From: Lachnospiraceae bacterium
GTDB taxonomy: Bacteria; Bacillota; Clostridia; Lachnospirales; Lachnospiraceae
Assembly: GCA_017959525.1 (NCBI GenBank)
Contig: JAGDAL010000152.1
Coordinates: 1-11,334, forward strand
Length of the DNA stretch: 11,334 nucleotides
Reading direction: 5' to 3'
Position 1 is the first letter of the stretch, and each line of letters opens with the position of its first letter. Made by a program: the position numbers and the translations under genes. The notes beneath the pieces are model-generated. The model made no database searches. It was not told the DNA's origin and saw only the letters and a program-made list of their open reading frames with translations. Below are positions 3,389 through 11,334 of the stretch, one piece after another.

Positions 3389-4249
3389 CTAACATTCATT
3401 CTGCATTTTGCGGTATTCCGTTGGTGTGCAGCCTTTTACAATTTTAAACATACGAATAAACGCCGACAAGGAGGAAAAGCCGCAACCCAAGGCCACGTCT
3501 GTAATAGAGTTCTCTTCCTGTGCCAGCAGATTCTCGGCCATAGCAATGCGCTTCTGGTTGAGATACTTGTAAAAGGATACATTGGTAAACTGTTTAAACA
3601 ATCGGGTGAAATAGAACTTGCTGAATCCCGCCTGTTCCGCCACCTGCTCTAAGGTCAGATCCTCTGTACAATGGGTAGAGATGTAATCGCAGATGGAGAG
3701 GAACTTATCCGTATATTCCTGCTGTCTGGAAATATTGGCGGAGAGCTGGTCCGCCGTATTGGTATAGTTCTGTCCAATCAAAGAGAGCATCAGTAGGAAC
3801 TTGCTATAGATGAAGGACTCCGAGAAGAAGTTGTCCCGGAAGTATTCCTCCTGAATCTCAAGCACCAGCTGGCGGATGGTCTCATAGATGCCGGGATATT
3901 GCTCCGGCGTAATGAGAATGGCCGGTGAGAGCAAAGAGAGAATGGTATCCACATCCTTGATCTCTCGAAGAGAAGTGGTACCAATCTGAAAGATGATACG
4001 CTCCCCGGTCTTAGGTGCCGTTAGGGTATGAATGGTTCCCGGGCAGATAAAAAAGATATCTCCTTCCCGCAAATCATATTCCACACCACAGCACTCGGCG
4101 TGATAGCCGTTCTTGATTGGCATAATGATCTCAATCGGTGTATGCCAGTGGGCCGGGTAGTTCTCGTATTGGTTGTTATAGTAGAATTTTAATTTCGTGT
4201 TCCCGTGGTAATGCACGGTCTCCACGATTCCGTTTAGTGTTTCAATCAT
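3389..4249 (-). CDS. AraC family transcriptional regulator with N-terminal cupin
   Basis: This 286-residue regulator has two parts. Residues 20-95 form a cupin-type ligand-binding domain with HWHTPIEI (34-41) and EGDIFFICPGTIH (62-74). Residues 183-283 form a C-terminal double helix-turn-helix with LTLEQVAEQAGFSKFYFTRLFKQ (198-220) and ITDVALGCGFSSLSAFIRMFK (249-269), ending in the usual PTEYR. The size and domain order are standard for sugar-responsive activators of the AraC/XylS family. The ATG at 4247-4249 has GAGGGG at 4255-4260 upstream. The gene is first in an operon with the esterase and diverges from the ABC transporter/GH3 operon, the classic arrangement for a local activator. The inducer is probably the imported sugar or a breakdown product. 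This is inferred from context, not from residues. The TAG stop falls within the next gene's ribosome binding site. Confidence 0.92.
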   Translation of the reverse strand: MIETLNGIVETVHYHGNTKLKFYYNNQYENYPAHWHTPIEIIMPIKNGYHAECCGVEYDLREGDIFFICPGTIHTLTAPKTGERIIFQIGTTSLREIKDVDTILSLLSPAILITPEQYPGIYETIRQLVLEIQEEYFRDNFFSESFIYSKFLLMLSLIGQNYTNTADQLSANISRQQEYTDKFLSICDYISTHCTEDLTLEQVAEQAGFSKFYFTRLFKQFTNVSFYKYLNQKRIAMAENLLAQEENSITDVALGCGFSSLSAFIRMFKIVKGCTPTEYRKMQNEC

Positions 4250-4523: not shown

Positions 4524-4532
4524 TGCTAGTAT
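4524..4532 (+). promoter_or_regulatory. Predicted extended -10 promoter of the sugar ABC/GH3 operon
   Basis: TGC (4524-4526) followed by TAGTAT (4527-4532) forms an extended -10. The -35 position 17 bases upstream (4504-4509, AAAGCG) is poor, as expected for an activator-dependent promoter. Transcription would begin near 4539, giving a leader of about 43 bases. The ATG at 4531 falls within this -10, which argues that the lipoprotein starts further down, at GTG 4582. Confidence 0.45.
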
Positions 4533-4581
4533 GAGGACAGTAACACAAACGCGAAAAAATCTTGAAAAGGGGGTATTGTTT

Positions 4582-5892
4582 GTGAAGAAAAAGTTACTAT
4601 CTATTTTACTTACCGCAACCTTAGCAATCTCAACACTTGCAGGCTGTGGAGCAAGCGGAAGCGGCAGTGGAACTGCATCCGGAGGGGACAATGGCGGAGC
4701 AGAAGAGATTACCTGGATGTTCTGGGATGATCTGAATGCAACAGAGGATTTGATTTCTCTTGGATACAAGGACGTCATTGACAGATTCAACAAGGACTAC
4801 GAAGGGGTTTATCACGTAACACCGGTAACCACAAACTTGGAAGAGTACTACACCAAGTTGAACGCATTGGTAGCATCCGGCGAGACACCGGACTGCTTCA
4901 TCGTAAGCCCGGGACCAAACCTTACAACTTATGTTGATCCTGGTGTAGCTGCTGATCTGACTCCTTATCTGGAGGCTGACGGATGGAAGGATACCTTCTC
5001 CAGCGACAGCGTATTCTCACAGCAGACTTACGACGGCAAGATCTACGCAGTACCGTTGAACATCGCAGCTGCTTGCGTATTCTACAACACAGAGATGTTC
5101 GAGAAGGCCGGTGTAGAAGTTCCGAAGACCTGGGATGAGTTATTGGCAGCATGTGACAAGCTTCAGAAGGCCGGTTACACACCAATCACCATTTCTGCAG
5201 GAACCGCTTGGTGCTTATCCATGTTGTGTGCATACCTGATGGACCGCGAAGGTGCAAGCCTTGCAGACATGGAATCAGGCAAGGAGAGCTGGGTTAACGA
5301 CAAGACTATCGATGTTGGTAACAAGATGCTTGAGTTATCCAAGTACTTCCAGCCAACCGCAGCAGGAGATACCAACGACGTTGCAACCGCAGCATTCTAC
5401 AACGAAGAAGCAGCAATCCTGATTCAGGGTTCCTGGGCAATCGGTCAGATCAACGGATCTAACCCTGCATTCGAAGAGAAGTGTGGTGTATTCCAGTTCC
5501 CTGCATTGGATGGCGGCAATGATCCAAACCGTGTTATTGCGAAGTCCGATTCTCTTGCAATGAGCGCTAAGACCGAGCATCCGGAAGCAGTTATCGCTTT
5601 GATGAAGTACTTCACCGATGACACTGCTCAGAAGTACACCGCAGAAAAAGGTGGAAAGATTCCGGTAACCAACGTTTCTTATGATGAAAATGCAGCACCT
5701 GCACAGTTGGCATACGTTATGGACATCTTCAAGAATGCATCCGGTACCTTCGGATTCTTAAATGAGTCCTTGAAGACGACCGAGGCAGGTTCTTTCTTCG
5801 ATGATCAGATGGTATCCATCTACTTGGGAAGCCAGACACCGGAACAGGGATTCCAGAGCATTGAAGACTGGTACGTAGATAACATCCGCTAA
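4582..5892 (+). CDS. Sugar ABC transporter substrate-binding lipoprotein (CUT1, SBP_bac_1 type)
   Basis: This 436-residue lipoprotein captures an oligosaccharide outside the cell and passes it to the two permeases encoded next. The N-terminus VKKKLLSILL followed by a hydrophobic stretch and STLAGC is a lipoprotein signal, with Cys22 the lipidation site. A short Gly/Ser-rich linker follows. EEITWMFWDD then opens an extracellular solute-binding family 1 fold, with YDGKIYAVPLN, TWDELLAACDKLQKAGYTPI, the GSWAIGQI block and a C-terminal EQGFQSIEDW helix. The start is GTG 4582, with AAGGGGG at 4567-4573 8 bases before it. Reading from ATG 4531 would put 17 residues ahead of the signal peptide. Codon use is more biased than in neighbours (AAC, TTC, TAC, GCA), consistent with high expression. 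The exact ligand cannot be read from sequence; xylo-oligosaccharide fits the enzymes nearby. Confidence 0.92.
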   Translation: MKKKLLSILLTATLAISTLAGCGASGSGSGTASGGDNGGAEEITWMFWDDLNATEDLISLGYKDVIDRFNKDYEGVYHVTPVTTNLEEYYTKLNALVASGETPDCFIVSPGPNLTTYVDPGVAADLTPYLEADGWKDTFSSDSVFSQQTYDGKIYAVPLNIAAACVFYNTEMFEKAGVEVPKTWDELLAACDKLQKAGYTPITISAGTAWCLSMLCAYLMDREGASLADMESGKESWVNDKTIDVGNKMLELSKYFQPTAAGDTNDVATAAFYNEEAAILIQGSWAIGQINGSNPAFEEKCGVFQFPALDGGNDPNRVIAKSDSLAMSAKTEHPEAVIALMKYFTDDTAQKYTAEKGGKIPVTNVSYDENAAPAQLAYVMDIFKNASGTFGFLNESLKTTEAGSFFDDQMVSIYLGSQTPEQGFQSIEDWYVDNIR

Positions 5893-5929: not shown

Positions 5930-6814
5930 ATGAATAAGTTATTACAGGACAAAAAGGCAATTTGTATTTTTATTGTGCCGGGGTTATTACTTTTTACTTT
6001 TGTTCTATTTATCCCAATCTGTCAGTCCATTTATTACTCGCTGTGTAATTACGACGCACTGACACCGCCGAAGTTTATTGGATTTACAAATTATAAAAAT
6101 CTTTTGCGTGATGACACGATGAAAATAGCGCTGAAGAATTCTATGTTCTTCTTGATCTTCTCCTGTGTAACTCAGTTGATCATGGGCCTGCTTCTTGCAG
6201 GCCTGTTGACCAACATCAAGAAGGGCAGAAATTTTTTCAAAAACGTCATTTATTTACCGTGTGTATTGTCTTCCGCAGCACTTGGTCTTCTGTGGATGTT
6301 CATCTTCAGCCCGAAGCTGGGTATCAACCAGTTGCTCCAGGCCAGAGGAATTCCGGGACCGTTGTGGTTGATGGATACCAAAGGATTTATTACCTTACCG
6401 ATGTGGGTCATCGGATTCGTTGCCTTATGGCAGTACGTCGGACAGTCTATGATGCTTTACATGGCACAGATTTCCGGCATCAGCAAAACCTTATATGAAG
6501 CAAGCGAGATTGACGGATGCTCCAAGGCGAAGTCATTCCGCTATATTACCTTACCACTGATCAAACCGATGGTGGGAACCGCAATGAGCTTGAATGCTAT
6601 TGGTTCCTTAAAATTCTTCGATTTGATTTTCAACATGACCGAAGGTGGTCCGAACCATACTACCGAAGTATTGGCAACCCACTTGTATACCCAGGGATTT
6701 AAGTATTTCAAATACGGATATGCCAGTGCCATCGGCGTCATTCTTCTGGTGTTGTGTTTGATTATGACCGGATTGATCAATACCGTATTTAAGACCGATC
6801 AATACGAGAATTAG
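5930..6814 (+). CDS. Sugar ABC transporter permease, MalF/UgpA type
   Basis: This 294-residue inner-membrane protein has about six hydrophobic segments (roughly 10-32, 72-95, 104-127, 154-178, 212-232 and 263-285). The cytoplasmic EAA loop EASEIDGCSKAKSFRYITLP (190-209) is the contact site for the ATPase. The motif ending TEGGPNHTTEVLATHLY (238-254) is typical of MalF-type CUT1 permeases. Together with the next protein it forms the channel for the sugar delivered by the lipoprotein. AAGGGG at 5918-5923 precedes the ATG at 5930 by 6 bases. The TAG stop at 6812-6814 directly abuts the next gene's ribosome binding site (GGAGGGG, 6816-6822). Length and motifs look complete. Confidence 0.94.
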   Translation: MNKLLQDKKAICIFIVPGLLLFTFVLFIPICQSIYYSLCNYDALTPPKFIGFTNYKNLLRDDTMKIALKNSMFFLIFSCVTQLIMGLLLAGLLTNIKKGRNFFKNVIYLPCVLSSAALGLLWMFIFSPKLGINQLLQARGIPGPLWLMDTKGFITLPMWVIGFVALWQYVGQSMMLYMAQISGISKTLYEASEIDGCSKAKSFRYITLPLIKPMVGTAMSLNAIGSLKFFDLIFNMTEGGPNHTTEVLATHLYTQGFKYFKYGYASAIGVILLVLCLIMTGLINTVFKTDQYEN

Positions 6815-6825
6815 TGGAGGGGTAT

Positions 6826-7665
6826 ATGAAACAGGAAACAAAACGGATTTCCGTTCTTAAAATAGTCATTTACATCTTTTTCTGCTTTATGACAGCACTG
6901 TATCTGGTGCCGCTCTTGTGGGTATTTTCCGTATCCTTCAAGACCAATGCAGAAATCTTTTCATCCCCGTTCTCTCTACCGAAGAGCTTGTTTGTAGACA
7001 ATTACGTGGTAGCATGGACGGCGGGCAAATTGGGTATCGCTACCTGGAACTCCTTCCTGGTATGTGTGATTACCCTGCTTCTTAGTATGTTGGTTGGATC
7101 CATGATTGCATTTGCCATTGCAAGAATGCAGTGGAAGATGTCCAAGCTGGTACTGACTTACTTCATGCTTGGTATGATGATTCCGGTACACTGCGTATTG
7201 ATTCCGCTGTTTACCAGATTCGCCAAGCTTGGCTTATCCAACAACCTGTGGGGATTGGTACTCCCGTACTTAACCTTCTCCCTGCCGGTAACCATCTATA
7301 TCATGACCGGATTCTTTCGAAGCATTCCAAGTGAGCTCTTAGAAGCTGCATGTATCGATGGTTGTTCCATTTATAAGATTTTCTTCCAGGTATGCTTACC
7401 GCTGGCCAAGACCGGACTTTTCGTAACGGGCCTTATGACCTTCGTAGCAAACTGGAATGAATTGTTGCTGGCAATGGTATTTATCTCTGACGATAATATC
7501 AAGACCTTGCCGGTATCCTTATCGAAATTCGTAGGACCATATAATACAAATTACTCACAGATGTTTGCGGCAATTATTATTGCAATTATTCCGACCATTG
7601 CGGTTTATTGTGCTTTTTCCAACCAAATTGTTGATGGTTTGACCGCCGGCGCTGTGAAGGGCTAA
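6826..7665 (+). CDS. Sugar ABC transporter permease, MalG type
   Basis: This 279-residue second membrane subunit of the importer has an N-terminal segment LKIVIYIFFCFMTALYLVPL (11-30). The typical WNSFLVC (74-80), further hydrophobic segments and an EAA loop EAACIDGCSIYKIFFQVCLP (173-192) follow. It ends in DGLTAGAVKG, which is characteristic of MalG-type proteins. The start is ATG 6826, with GGAGG at 6816-6820 5 to 6 bases upstream. A GTG at 6814 in the same frame overlaps the preceding stop and would place the ribosome binding site inside the coding region, so it is rejected. No ATP-binding gene is present in the operon. CUT1 importers of Firmicutes often share one MsiK/MalK-type ATPase encoded elsewhere, and that is the likely case here. 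Confidence 0.94.
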   Translation: MKQETKRISVLKIVIYIFFCFMTALYLVPLLWVFSVSFKTNAEIFSSPFSLPKSLFVDNYVVAWTAGKLGIATWNSFLVCVITLLLSMLVGSMIAFAIARMQWKMSKLVLTYFMLGMMIPVHCVLIPLFTRFAKLGLSNNLWGLVLPYLTFSLPVTIYIMTGFFRSIPSELLEAACIDGCSIYKIFFQVCLPLAKTGLFVTGLMTFVANWNELLLAMVFISDDNIKTLPVSLSKFVGPYNTNYSQMFAAIIIAIIPTIAVYCAFSNQIVDGLTAGAVKG

Positions 7666-7679
7666 AAGGAAAAAAGAGT

Positions 7680-9449
7680 ATGAATCTAAAGCAAGCGAGA
7701 GAACGCGCGGAGGCATTAGTGGCACAGATGACGTTAGAAGAGAAGGCGTCACAGCTTCGATACAATGCACCGGCGATTCCAAGATTACAAATCCCGGAAT
7801 ATAACTGGTGGAATGAAAGTCTTCACGGAGTCGCTCGTGGCGGAACGGCAACCATGTTCCCGCAAGCAATCGGAATGGCCGCAGCCTTCGATTCCGAACT
7901 GATGCAAGAAATCGGTGACTGCATTTCTACGGAAGGTAGAGCACGTTATAACGAGATGTCCAAGCGCGGCGATCGGGACATCTATAAGGGACTGACCTTC
8001 TGGTCACCGAATGTCAATATTTTTCGTGATCCGCGTTGGGGAAGAGGACATGAAACCTATGGAGAGGACCCGTACTTGGCCGGAACCTTAGGGGTCTCTT
8101 TTATCCATGGGATTCAGGGCGATGGCGAATATCTAAAGGCTGCGGCGTGTGCAAAACACTTCGCGGTACACTCCGGGCCGGAAGCCATCCGTCATTCCTT
8201 CGATGCCAAGGCATCCAAGAAGGATATGGAAGAAACCTACTTAGCTGCATTTGAAACCTGCGTAAAAGATGGTGGCGTAGAGGCTGTCATGGGCGCATAC
8301 AACCGCGTCAATGGCGAGCCGGCCTGTGCCAGCAAGACCTTACTGCAGGATACCCTCCGAGACAAATGGGGCTTTGAAGGCCATGTGGTGTCCGACTGTT
8401 GGGCGCTGCGTGATATCCATGAGAATCACAAAGTCACCAAGACGGTGGAAGAATCCGCAAAGCTGGCCTTAGAAATGGGCTGCGACTTAAACTGTGGATG
8501 TACCTATGAGAGCTTGCTCTCCGCCGTGGATAAGGGACTGGTTACAGAAGAGCTGATCACCAAATCCTGTGTACGGTTGTTTACCACCCGGTTCTTACTT
8601 GGACTTTTTGATGAGACATCCTTCGATTCCCTAGGATTCCTGGATGTAGGAACCAAGGAGCATGAAGCATTGGCACATCGCGCCGCCAGAGAGAGTATGG
8701 TCCTTCTGAAAAATAATGGCATCCTGCCGCTTTCCTTGGAAGGCGTGCACACCGTGGGTGTCATCGGACCAAACGCCAACAGCCGCAAGGCCTTAATCGG
8801 TAACTATCACGGAACAGCCCAGCGCTATGTCACCGTCTTAGAAGGCTTACAGGAGAAGCTCCCGGAGGATATCCGAGTATTGTACTCCGAAGGATGTCAT
8901 CTCTGGAAGAACAATGTCGAGCCGTTGTCCAAGCCGTCCAACTCCGATCGATTGGCAGAAGCCAAGACGGTCTGTGATTACTCGGATGTAGTCATCTTAG
9001 TCGTTGGATTGGATGAGACCTTAGAAGGAGAGGAAGGAGATACCGGTAATTCCGATGCCTCCGGTGACAAGAAGGATTTACGCTTCCCGGGACCGCAGCG
9101 TGAGTTGATGAGAGCGGTATTGGATTGTGGCAAGCCGGTAGTGGTTGTAAACATGACCGGTTCCGCCATGGACTTGGTCTTAGCAGACCAGAAGGCAGCT
9201 GCGATTTTGCAGGCCTGGTATCCGGGTGCCTTGGGCGGAGAAGACGTAGCCGATGTATTGCTTGGTAAGGCAGCACCTTCCGGCAAGCTTCCGGTGACCT
9301 TCTATGAGAACACCAATGATCTTCCGGATTTTGAAGATTATTCCATGAAGAATCGTACCTATCGGTACTTTACAGGAACACCGCTGTATCCCTTCGGATA
9401 TGGACTGACCTATGGACAGTTGGATGTTGTATTTGCAACCGTAGACTAG
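7680..9449 (+). CDS. GH3 family beta-glycosidase (beta-xylosidase/beta-glucosidase type), cut at an in-frame TAG
   Basis: This 589-residue product lacks a signal peptide and would act in the cytoplasm, releasing sugars from the non-reducing end of imported oligosaccharides. The N-terminal TIM barrel shows NWWNESLHGVAR (42-53), DPRWGRGHETYGEDPYL (117-133), CAKHF (157-161), MGAYNRVNG (204-212) and VSDC with nucleophile Asp239. The second alpha/beta domain shows NYHGTAQRYVT (375-385), an acid/base region at DETLEGEEGD (445-454), FPGPQREL (469-476) and YPFGYGLTY (570-578). NWWNESLHG and NYHGT..RYVT favour the beta-xylosidase branch; beta-glucosidase remains possible. ATG 7680 lies 14 bases after the permease stop, with AAAGGA at 7665-7670. 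The frame ends at TAG 9447-9449, just where the family's fibronectin-III-like domain should begin. That domain is encoded downstream in the same frame. Both catalytic domains are intact, so the short protein may be active or unstable. Confidence 0.9.
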   Translation: MNLKQARERAEALVAQMTLEEKASQLRYNAPAIPRLQIPEYNWWNESLHGVARGGTATMFPQAIGMAAAFDSELMQEIGDCISTEGRARYNEMSKRGDRDIYKGLTFWSPNVNIFRDPRWGRGHETYGEDPYLAGTLGVSFIHGIQGDGEYLKAAACAKHFAVHSGPEAIRHSFDAKASKKDMEETYLAAFETCVKDGGVEAVMGAYNRVNGEPACASKTLLQDTLRDKWGFEGHVVSDCWALRDIHENHKVTKTVEESAKLALEMGCDLNCGCTYESLLSAVDKGLVTEELITKSCVRLFTTRFLLGLFDETSFDSLGFLDVGTKEHEALAHRAARESMVLLKNNGILPLSLEGVHTVGVIGPNANSRKALIGNYHGTAQRYVTVLEGLQEKLPEDIRVLYSEGCHLWKNNVEPLSKPSNSDRLAEAKTVCDYSDVVILVVGLDETLEGEEGDTGNSDASGDKKDLRFPGPQRELMRAVLDCGKPVVVVNMTGSAMDLVLADQKAAAILQAWYPGALGGEDVADVLLGKAAPSGKLPVTFYENTNDLPDFEDYSMKNRTYRYFTGTPLYPFGYGLTYGQLDVVFATVD

Positions 9450-9773
9450 CAACGGGCAGTACATGCAACCATCCGAAACAATCAAACCCTCCCATGTGAT
9501 GAAGTCCTGCAGGTCTATATCAAAGATGAGGATAGCGCATTTGCCGTACTGCATCCGACCTTGTGCGGATTTGCAAGAGTATCATTGGCAGCAGGCGAGG
9601 AGACAGAAGTTATTATTCCGTTATCCGAGAGAGCCTTTACCAGTGTGGCAGAAGACGGCACCCGGGATATCTTCGGTAAGAATTTCTCCGTGTATGTGGG
9701 ATTTTCTCAGCCGGATGCCCGCAGTGCGGCATTAACCAAACAGGACACTATCAAAATCCCTTATCATTTATAA
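9450..9773 (+). pseudogene. Fibronectin-III-like C-terminal domain of the GH3 gene, separated by an in-frame amber codon
   Basis: This is the same reading frame as the GH3 gene (7680), open for 107 codons after the TAG and closing at TAA 9771-9773. It encodes a typical GH3 FnIII-like domain: ATIRNN, DEVLQVYIKDEDS, HPTLCGFARVSLAAGEE, IIPLSERAF and NFSVYVGFSQPDARSAA. Joined through the TAG, the gene would have 697 codons before TAA, the usual length for three-domain GH3 enzymes. No ATG occurs in this frame here. The first internal start (TTG 9561) falls inside the domain and has no ribosome binding site, so it is not an independent gene. The simplest view is a nonsense mutation, for example CAG to TAG. 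Sequencing error and readthrough are alternatives. Confidence 0.88.
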
Positions 9774-9777
9774 AAGC

Positions 9778-9819
9778 GAAGACAGCATCCGTTGACCCTG
9801 CGGGTGCTGTTTTCCTTTT
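9778..9819 (+). terminator. Rho-independent terminator of the ABC/GH3 operon
   Basis: The left arm (9778-9791, core ACAGCATCCG) pairs with the right arm (9801-9814, core CGGGTGCTGT), including two G-U pairs, around a 9-base loop. It runs into TTTTCCTTTT. It starts 4 bases after the TAA at 9771-9773. Its position just after the second stop, not after the internal TAG, shows that the original gene ended at 9773. Confidence 0.88.
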
Positions 9820-9827
9820 GTAAAATA

Positions 9828-9836
9828 TGGTACAAT
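9828..9836 (+). promoter_or_regulatory. Predicted extended -10 promoter of the response regulator gene
   Basis: TGG (9828-9830) followed by TACAAT (9831-9836) makes a good extended -10. There is no recognisable -35 at the right spacing, where the terminator's right arm and T tract lie. Transcription would begin near 9842 and leave a leader of about 36 bases before the ATG at 9878. Confidence 0.5.
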
Positions 9837-9877
9837 CTCGTAAAGGGATTTTTAAAATATTTTGGGGGAATCTATAG

Positions 9878-11334
9878 ATGCTAAAAGTTTTTTTAGTGGA
9901 AGACGAATATGTCGTCCGTGAGGCTATTAAGAACAATATCAATTGGAGCGAGTACGGAATCGACTTCTGCGGTGAGGCAGGAGACGGAGAAGTGGCGCTT
10001 TCCATGATTCGCAAGGAATTGCCGGATATTGTGATTACTGATATCAAGATGCCTTTCATGGACGGCATTACTTTATCTAAATTACTGAAGGAAGAATTTC
10101 CTTGGATGGAAATCATCCTGCTCACCGGATACGAAGAGTTTTCTTATGCACAGGAAGCCATTCATATCGGTGTGGCCAGATATCTGAGTAAGCCGATTAA
10201 CGGCGAGACACTCATTCATGAAATTGACGATCTCGGTCAGAAAATCCAAGAGAAAAAAGAAGAAGTTGCCATCGTAAAGAAATACGAGCGGGAGATGGAA
10301 GAGCGTACCGTCTTAGAGAGACAGGAGTTTTTTGACCAGTTGGTCAGCGGCGGACGGGATGCAGCCAGACTCTTAGAGGAAGCCAGAAAGCTCTCCTTAG
10401 ATGTGTCTGCGGCTTGCTATAACATCCTGCTCCTTAAGGTATGGTCCGACCGCCACGATATGGAGGAATACTCCAAGACCGTGGTATCCATGGAAGACAG
10501 ATTACATGATAAAGCGGAAGAGAAGCAGGCACTGCTGTTTGATCGCCACTTAGAGGGGAAGGCCCTTCTATTCAAGGCGGATTCCGAGGAAGAGATGGAC
10601 GTGTTATTGCAGGAGTTTACCGCCTGGTTAGAGGAGATGTTTGCGGAGAATCGTCACATCCATTACTTCGGTGGTGTGGGACGCACGGTGCGTCGGCTTT
10701 CCGAACTTCCGGAGTCCTTTGCAGTAGCTGGACGGGGATTTGCCCATCGCTACTTAGGAGAGCCGGATGCCATTCTTTTCGATAACGATCCGGTGGTATT
10801 GCATACGGACAATCTGTCCTTATCGGAACTGAATCCGAAGCGGATGGCTCATGAGCGTGTGATTGAGTTCTTACGCCGTGGCGATTTGCCGGAAGTATCC
10901 TTCTTCGTTGAAGAGTTCATTCAGGGCCTTGGCAAGCATGCCATGCAGTCCACCATGTTCCGTCAGTATATCGTGATGGATACGTACCTTACGGTCGTAG
11001 ACTTCGTAGAGAGCGAATTACAGAAATCCAGAGGCCTCATCGAGACCTTCGATGATGATCCTCGGGTGACTGCCAACGAGGATACGGCTGTTGCTTATAT
11101 GAAGCGGATTGTAGAGAGCGCATTGCAGCTAAGAGAAGATATTTCCAAGGACCGTTACTACGATGTGGTACAGGAAGCCATTGCCTATATTGAAGAGCAT
11201 TACATGGAGGAGGATTTCTCTCTGAACGTGTTAGCATCTCATGTGAACTTCTCTCCAAACCATTTGAGTGCGGTCTTCCGCCAGCAGACCGGTCAGCCGT
11301 TTATTAAGTACTTAACGGATTACCGCATCAAAAA
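9878..11334 (+). CDS. YesN-type response regulator with AraC-type DNA-binding domain, 3' end cut by the window
   Basis: The frame is open from ATG 9878 to the window end, giving 485 residues with no stop. GGGGGAA at 9864-9870 lies 7 bases upstream of the start. The receiver domain (1-120) has acidic residues E8/D9/E10, phospho-acceptor Asp55 in ITDIKMP, Thr83 in LLTGYEEF and Lys105 in YLSKP. A charged, probably coiled linker follows (about 112-150). The middle region (about 160-390) resembles the poorly conserved central domain of YesN proteins. The first helix-turn-helix of an AraC-type domain lies at about 446-470 (FSLNVLASHVNFSPNHLSAVFRQQ). Only the last part of the second helix-turn-helix module, perhaps 30-60 residues, is missing. 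Such proteins are phosphorylated by a YesM-type histidine kinase and usually control nearby sugar-uptake genes. A kinase gene probably lies to the right, and the ABC/GH3 operon is a plausible target. Confidence 0.93.
   Translation, partial: MLKVFLVEDEYVVREAIKNNINWSEYGIDFCGEAGDGEVALSMIRKELPDIVITDIKMPFMDGITLSKLLKEEFPWMEIILLTGYEEFSYAQEAIHIGVARYLSKPINGETLIHEIDDLGQKIQEKKEEVAIVKKYEREMEERTVLERQEFFDQLVSGGRDAARLLEEARKLSLDVSAACYNILLLKVWSDRHDMEEYSKTVVSMEDRLHDKAEEKQALLFDRHLEGKALLFKADSEEEMDVLLQEFTAWLEEMFAENRHIHYFGGVGRTVRRLSELPESFAVAGRGFAHRYLGEPDAILFDNDPVVLHTDNLSLSELNPKRMAHERVIEFLRRGDLPEVSFFVEEFIQGLGKHAMQSTMFRQYIVMDTYLTVVDFVESELQKSRGLIETFDDDPRVTANEDTAVAYMKRIVESALQLREDISKDRYYDVVQEAIAYIEEHYMEEDFSLNVLASHVNFSPNHLSAVFRQQTGQPFIKYLTDYRIK

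Follow-up and report, generated by a model that had tools for sequence, protein, structure and literature searches.

The window analysed here is a stretch of 11,334 nucleotides (GenBank assembly GCA_017959525.1, contig JAGDAL010000152.1, Lachnospiraceae bacterium) that makes up an entire contig (C128) of a draft genome, termed G000. It carries a glycoside hydrolase family 3 (GH3) gene whose reading frame is interrupted by a TAG codon. Comparison with the three other genomes of the genus (congeners G001 through G003), and with other genes of the same assembly, suggests that this TAG is probably an incorrect base of the consensus, in a metagenome assembly that is of low quality and probably strain-mixed. 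Failing a wrong base, the next best explanation is a young, unfixed nonsense variant. Of these two accounts of the GH3 base, error is the probable one and a real variant a good deal less likely. Further conserved genes of G000 are interrupted by single stops, with TAG, TAA and TGA all represented, and the GH3 stop is therefore most likely a base-level error or an unfixed variant rather than an instance of special decoding.

An in-frame TAG divides a full-length GH3 gene

The GH3 frame (7680-9449) encodes 589 amino acids before it meets TAG at 9447-9449, and then stays open in the same frame for 107 further codons until a TAA at 9771-9773. A preliminary description of this DNA had placed the TAG at codon 590 of a full-length gene split by the stop, and the same coordinates were recovered here. 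Profile matches in the head identify the N-terminal (PF00933, E=7.5e-49) and C-terminal (PF01915, E=5.6e-53) GH3 domains. The continuation on its own matches the Fn3-like domain of the family (PF14310, E=1.6e-12; score 47.8 bits, cut-off 25), which indicates that the sequence past the TAG is not open by chance. Thus, all three domains of a three-domain GH3 enzyme are present in frame, though the third lies beyond the stop, in agreement with the earlier assignment of the downstream codons.

A frameshift, which had been discounted previously, is excluded because the congener genes align codon for codon, at 698 codons each including the stop. As was also described, a terminator-like hairpin (15 pairs, 9778-9814) lies 3' of the second stop; a total of two such sites occur in 9300-9950, counted over both strands, compared with a mean of 0.7 in shuffled sequences. 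If the TAG is disregarded, the true gene would be a normal full-length three-domain glycosidase of approximately 697 residues.

Relatives carry a sense codon at the TAG position

The preliminary description proposed that the codon be compared in close relatives. An orthologue is present in all three congeners (identities of 94, 86 and 84%; frames open over 702 to 706 codons), and the codons at the TAG column encode Glu, Glu and Asp. These differ from the CAG (Gln) codon offered as an example, and no congener gene ends at this column. The GH3 gene of one congener, Lachnospiraceae bacterium isolate RUI302, does not differ from the G002 gene. A database cluster of 62 sequences (P0001) lies at 94% identity.

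Similar results were obtained with a broader set of relatives. Among 150 genomes of the family (E<=1e-150), all 51 other matches have frames of at least 672 codons, versus 604 for the gene in the window. At 110 of 111 orthologue loci, some of which derive from one genome present in two collections (e.g. L005 and L087), the sequence runs at least 90 residues beyond the TAG column, and the remaining locus ends at a contig edge. PF14310 is carried by 108 of the 120 homologues listed. No conserved short form was seen among these 120, as the 12 lacking PF14310 end at scattered places; when these 12 and two others were inspected by eye, their ends resembled contig ends or frameshifts. As far as seen in these sequences, the TAG is private to this assembly and its relatives are intact.

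Stops of all three kinds interrupt other genes of the same assembly

The G000 draft comprises 1.74 Mb in 370 contigs, with an estimated completeness of 70.84% and contamination of 3.14%. A sample of 118 contigs including the window was scanned, using a trained in-frame/off-frame score, for stops flanked on both sides by coding sequence in the same frame. Forty of these contigs, each shorter than 3,000 bases, read as N throughout, and the 78 readable contigs total 442,305 bases. The scan returned 44 rows (42 in a repeat on the readable contigs), from which intragenic cases were chosen by eye and six were checked against relatives. These six genes, each split by a single stop, encode a ParC-type topoisomerase subunit, ThrS, a DUF3881 protein, a GalM-like protein, an OafA-like acyltransferase and a GT2 glycosyltransferase (Table 1). 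The scan missed the GH3 stop itself and is thus not fully sensitive, so that six should be taken as a minimum.

The six stops comprise three TAG, two TAA and one TGA. Random single substitutions in the codons of this genome would yield 50.5% TAG, 29.4% TAA and 20.1% TGA, or 3.0:1.8:1.2 for six stops. The observed mix is near this expectation, suggesting that TAG is not special. Given six stops in 111,312 codons, and with 4.28% of substitutions being nonsense, approximately four bases in every 10,000 would be wrong or free of selection. The ParC-type and ThrS genes are expected to be essential, and real nonsense should not be easily tolerated in them. A true gyrA gene is present in G000 besides the ParC-type gene, and is open to the end of its contig.

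When 61 loci of the congeners (251,346 bases, partly overlapping) were scanned by the same method, 17 rows resulted, and by eye none appeared intragenic. At six per 442 kb approximately 3.4 cases would be expected, and the Poisson chance of observing zero is approximately 0.03. A scan of 80 loci from other genomes (936 kb, 162 rows) likewise gave no confidently intragenic case, although this result carries little weight, since the codon table was a pooled one and the rows were judged only by eye. Intact copies at the stop column were found for the OafA-like gene (P0121, 97% identity, 589 amino acids) and the GalM-like gene (P0140, 98% over a 190-residue query, 327 amino acids); P0121 and P0140 probably come from this species or one very close to it.

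The GH3 gene therefore presents a private stop with intact relatives, in an assembly with an excess of internal stops that extends to genes expected to be essential, as is the case for pseudogenes created by assembly error. The GH3 stop would belong to the same class as the six others, and this class would consist of errors rather than real low-frequency variants.

Table 1. Features of the GH3 region of the window, and genes elsewhere in G000 that are split by a single stop
Feature	Positions	Strand	Stop	Evidence or state in relatives
Gene taken to encode a sugar ABC solute-binding protein	4531..5892	+		ORF; syntenic and 98% identical in G003; upstream, same gene cluster
Presumed ABC permease-like gene	5930..6814	+	TAG (gene end)	ORF; TAG at same residue in G001-G003
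Presumed ABC permease-like gene	6814..7665	+		ORF; syntenic in G001-G003
GH3 head, 589 codons, N- and C-terminal domains	7680..9446	+		PF00933, PF01915
In-frame stop, this assembly only	9447..9449	+	TAG	ORF reading; comparison with relatives
Fn3-like continuation, 107 codons	9450..9770	+		PF14310; 84 of 107 residues same as G003
Second stop	9771..9773	+	TAA	G001-G003 genes end at same codon
Terminator-like hairpin	9778..9814	+		15 pairs; shuffle comparison
DUF3881			TAG	Head and tail both match PF12997 (tail E=3.9e-33); Tyr in two congeners
ParC-type topoisomerase subunit			TAG	Glu in three congeners
GalM-like gene, stretch after stop	L218:5027-5269 (G000 C30)		TAG	Tyr in five database relatives
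ThrS			TAA	Tyr in three congeners
OafA-like acyltransferase			TAA	Val or Glu in four relatives
GT2 glycosyltransferase			TGA	Gly in three congeners

Quality of the assembly and points against an error

Signs of base-level trouble are also evident at the ends of contigs. The ThrS gene lies on two contigs, the overlap between their ends being 59 bases long and containing one mismatch, and its stop lies 74 bases from the contig end. Mismatches occur in three of four overlapping contig-end pairs in the sample (22/282 for L176/L219, 6/174 for L247/L255 and 1/59 for L225/L250), and the fourth pair is identical over 119 bases. These mismatched ends suggest mixed strains or poor consensus. In one study (PMC11017572), the occurrence of spurious stops within genes followed sequencing coverage and errors of assembly.

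Several observations weigh against attributing the GH3 stop to error. The case for a wrong base draws on relatives and on the other interrupted genes. The other 38 of the 44 scan rows were assumed to be next genes or noise. Missense errors are not clearly indicated: when gyrA is set aside, residues changed in this assembly only are just slightly more numerous than those changed in G003 only (44 versus 38, in 17 of 20 pieces), the corresponding counts with gyrA being 72 versus 39 (18 of 20 pieces countable). All seven stops, GH3 included, would arise by transversion from the residues of relatives (none by transition, with a chance of 0.13 at a rate ratio of 2), and this pattern does not distinguish error from mutation. 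In the GH3 tail, second-position changes number six in the window lineage versus two in G003, which hints at relaxation, although the numbers are small. Finally, the GalM-like gene differs from P0140 at 16 of approximately 80 residues after its stop versus 4 of approximately 200 before it, possibly as a result of recombination or of relaxed evolution after the stop.

The gyrA gene (L292, G000 C272) stands apart in its divergence. Over 561 sites, it carries 28 changed residues where the three congeners agree, whereas one residue is changed in G003 alone. The GyrA protein of G000 is 94.9% identical to that of G003, and those of the congeners are 96-97% identical among themselves. This divergence could be due to recombination, contamination or error.

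The tail after the stop is not clearly relaxed

An old nonsense pseudogene should exhibit relaxed evolution after its stop. Compared with G003, dN/dS is 0.166 for the tail and 0.050 for the head, and each of the remaining five pairwise comparisons among the four genomes likewise gives the tail a higher dN than the head. Eight tail residues are changed only in the window and six only in G003, with nine left unassigned, and the corresponding numbers for the head are 14, 8 and 15. Under a stricter outgroup rule, the changes in the window versus G003 number 2 versus 5 in the tail and 9 versus 4 in the head. By these residue counts the tail exhibits no clear relaxation. A tail that is not clearly decaying suggests that the GH3 stop is young, is not real, or is read through.

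Alternative explanations for the GH3 stop

Assembly error, recent nonsense mutation and strain polymorphism, all listed in the preliminary description, remain live options. A real and very recent nonsense mutation or strain polymorphism, by which some cells would make a 589-residue protein that lacks the Fn3-like domain and has lost or reduced activity, is possible but not favoured. Genes of a sugar cluster may be dispensable in many conditions, and a young stop would leave the tail little relaxed, which matches the residue counts for tail and head. Moreover, real internal stops tend to persist only at the scale of polymorphism, according to PMC7918605. However, such a mutation in the GH3 gene leaves the stops in the ParC-type and ThrS genes unexplained.

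A view of the GH3 stop as an isolated event, indicative of amber suppression, of programmed readthrough or of a short form that works, is not supported: TAG, TAA and TGA interrupt unrelated genes of G000, two of which are housekeeping genes. Amber-specific suppression was the leading candidate while the GH3, DUF3881 and ParC-type genes, all with TAG, were the only interrupted genes known. It was dropped when the TAA cases (ThrS and OafA-like) and the TGA case (GT2) were found.

Amber suppression or programmed readthrough of TAG, yielding both a short and a full-length enzyme, is consequently very unlikely. The constraint on the tail relative to G003 is what it would predict, as were the three TAG-split genes known at that stage. 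However, interruption is not confined to TAG, and the stop is in none of the three congeners. In addition, TAG serves as a terminator in G000, ending 43 of the 144 open reading frames (ORFs) of at least 120 amino acids in a sample of 38 contigs (eight of which read as N), and release factor 1 (RF1) is intact (prfA above cut-off). These findings agree with the earlier judgement that general recoding of TAG is improbable, since neither RF1 nor TAG as a terminator has been lost. That judgement had cited three other genes in the window that end in TAG. Two of these, 3389-4249 (- strand) and 5930-6814 (+ strand), have orthologues that end in TAG at the same residue in all three congeners; for the third, only an open frame that enters from the contig edge was seen to end in TAG, at position 244.

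Decoding components were looked for, as had been proposed. No PylS match above the cut-off was found in any of the four genomes of the genus, all four giving weaker matches, with G000 only 70.84% complete. No tRNA with a CUA anticodon is present among the 13 tRNAs of G000, but this is a weak test because G003 has 47 tRNA matches and most G000 tRNAs are probably missing from the assembly. ARAGORN likewise found none on 18 of the 30 G003 tRNA loci.

RF2 genes often have a programmed frameshift near their start. The RF2-like gene prfB (L077, G000 C105) shows no sign of one: it is uninterrupted in all four genomes, with 383 codons in G000, G001 and G003 and 395 in G002.

It is more doubtful still that this lineage terminates leakily and reads through all three stops usefully, with nonsense tolerated in conserved and even essential genes. 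If true, it would be striking for a bacterium to tolerate stops in the genes for threonyl-tRNA synthetase and topoisomerase IV. Least credible is an adaptive two-domain form, in which the stop trims an accessory domain from an enzyme that still works. Two-domain GH3 enzymes do exist (PMC6987092), such as barley ExoI, which is listed among the solved relatives, but the orthologue frames run on past the TAG column.

Comparison with known systems

As a finding about decoding, the GH3 stop probably does not matter. Pyrrolysine or amber-suppressor decoding likewise involves an in-frame TAG followed by coding sequence, but here no PylS above cut-off and no CUA tRNA were found, RF1 is kept, and other stops also interrupt genes. 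A caution is nonetheless warranted, as one stop within the frame of a gene assembled from a metagenome resembled an amber story, and the impression that only TAG was involved lasted until wider sampling gave TAA and TGA at the proportions of random substitution.

Two published descriptions of internal stops offer close parallels. Pseudogenes produced by assembly error (Cooley and Wright 2024, PMC11017572) have internal stops where relatives are intact and are more common in poor assemblies, as is true here, whereas the present case is argued from relatives and other genes and not by way of reads or a reassembly. The stops that Belinky et al. (2021, PMC7918605) describe within bacterial genes under purifying selection resemble this TAG within a conserved gene with a constrained tail, but the present stop is found in a single assembly.

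G000 also carries a second GH3 gene (L190, G000 C60, 8217-10658) in which the C-domain match precedes the N-domain match, an arrangement that resembles the permuted ruminal enzyme GlyA1 (PMC5104943). The interrupted gene of the window, for which the nearest solved chains by sequence are 7vc7, 7vc6 and 5a7m, has the domain order GH3_N, GH3_C and Fn3-like of GH3 beta-glucosidases and beta-xylosidases with a C-terminal Fn3-like domain, provided that its stop, which falls after GH3_C and before the Fn3-like domain, is ignored.
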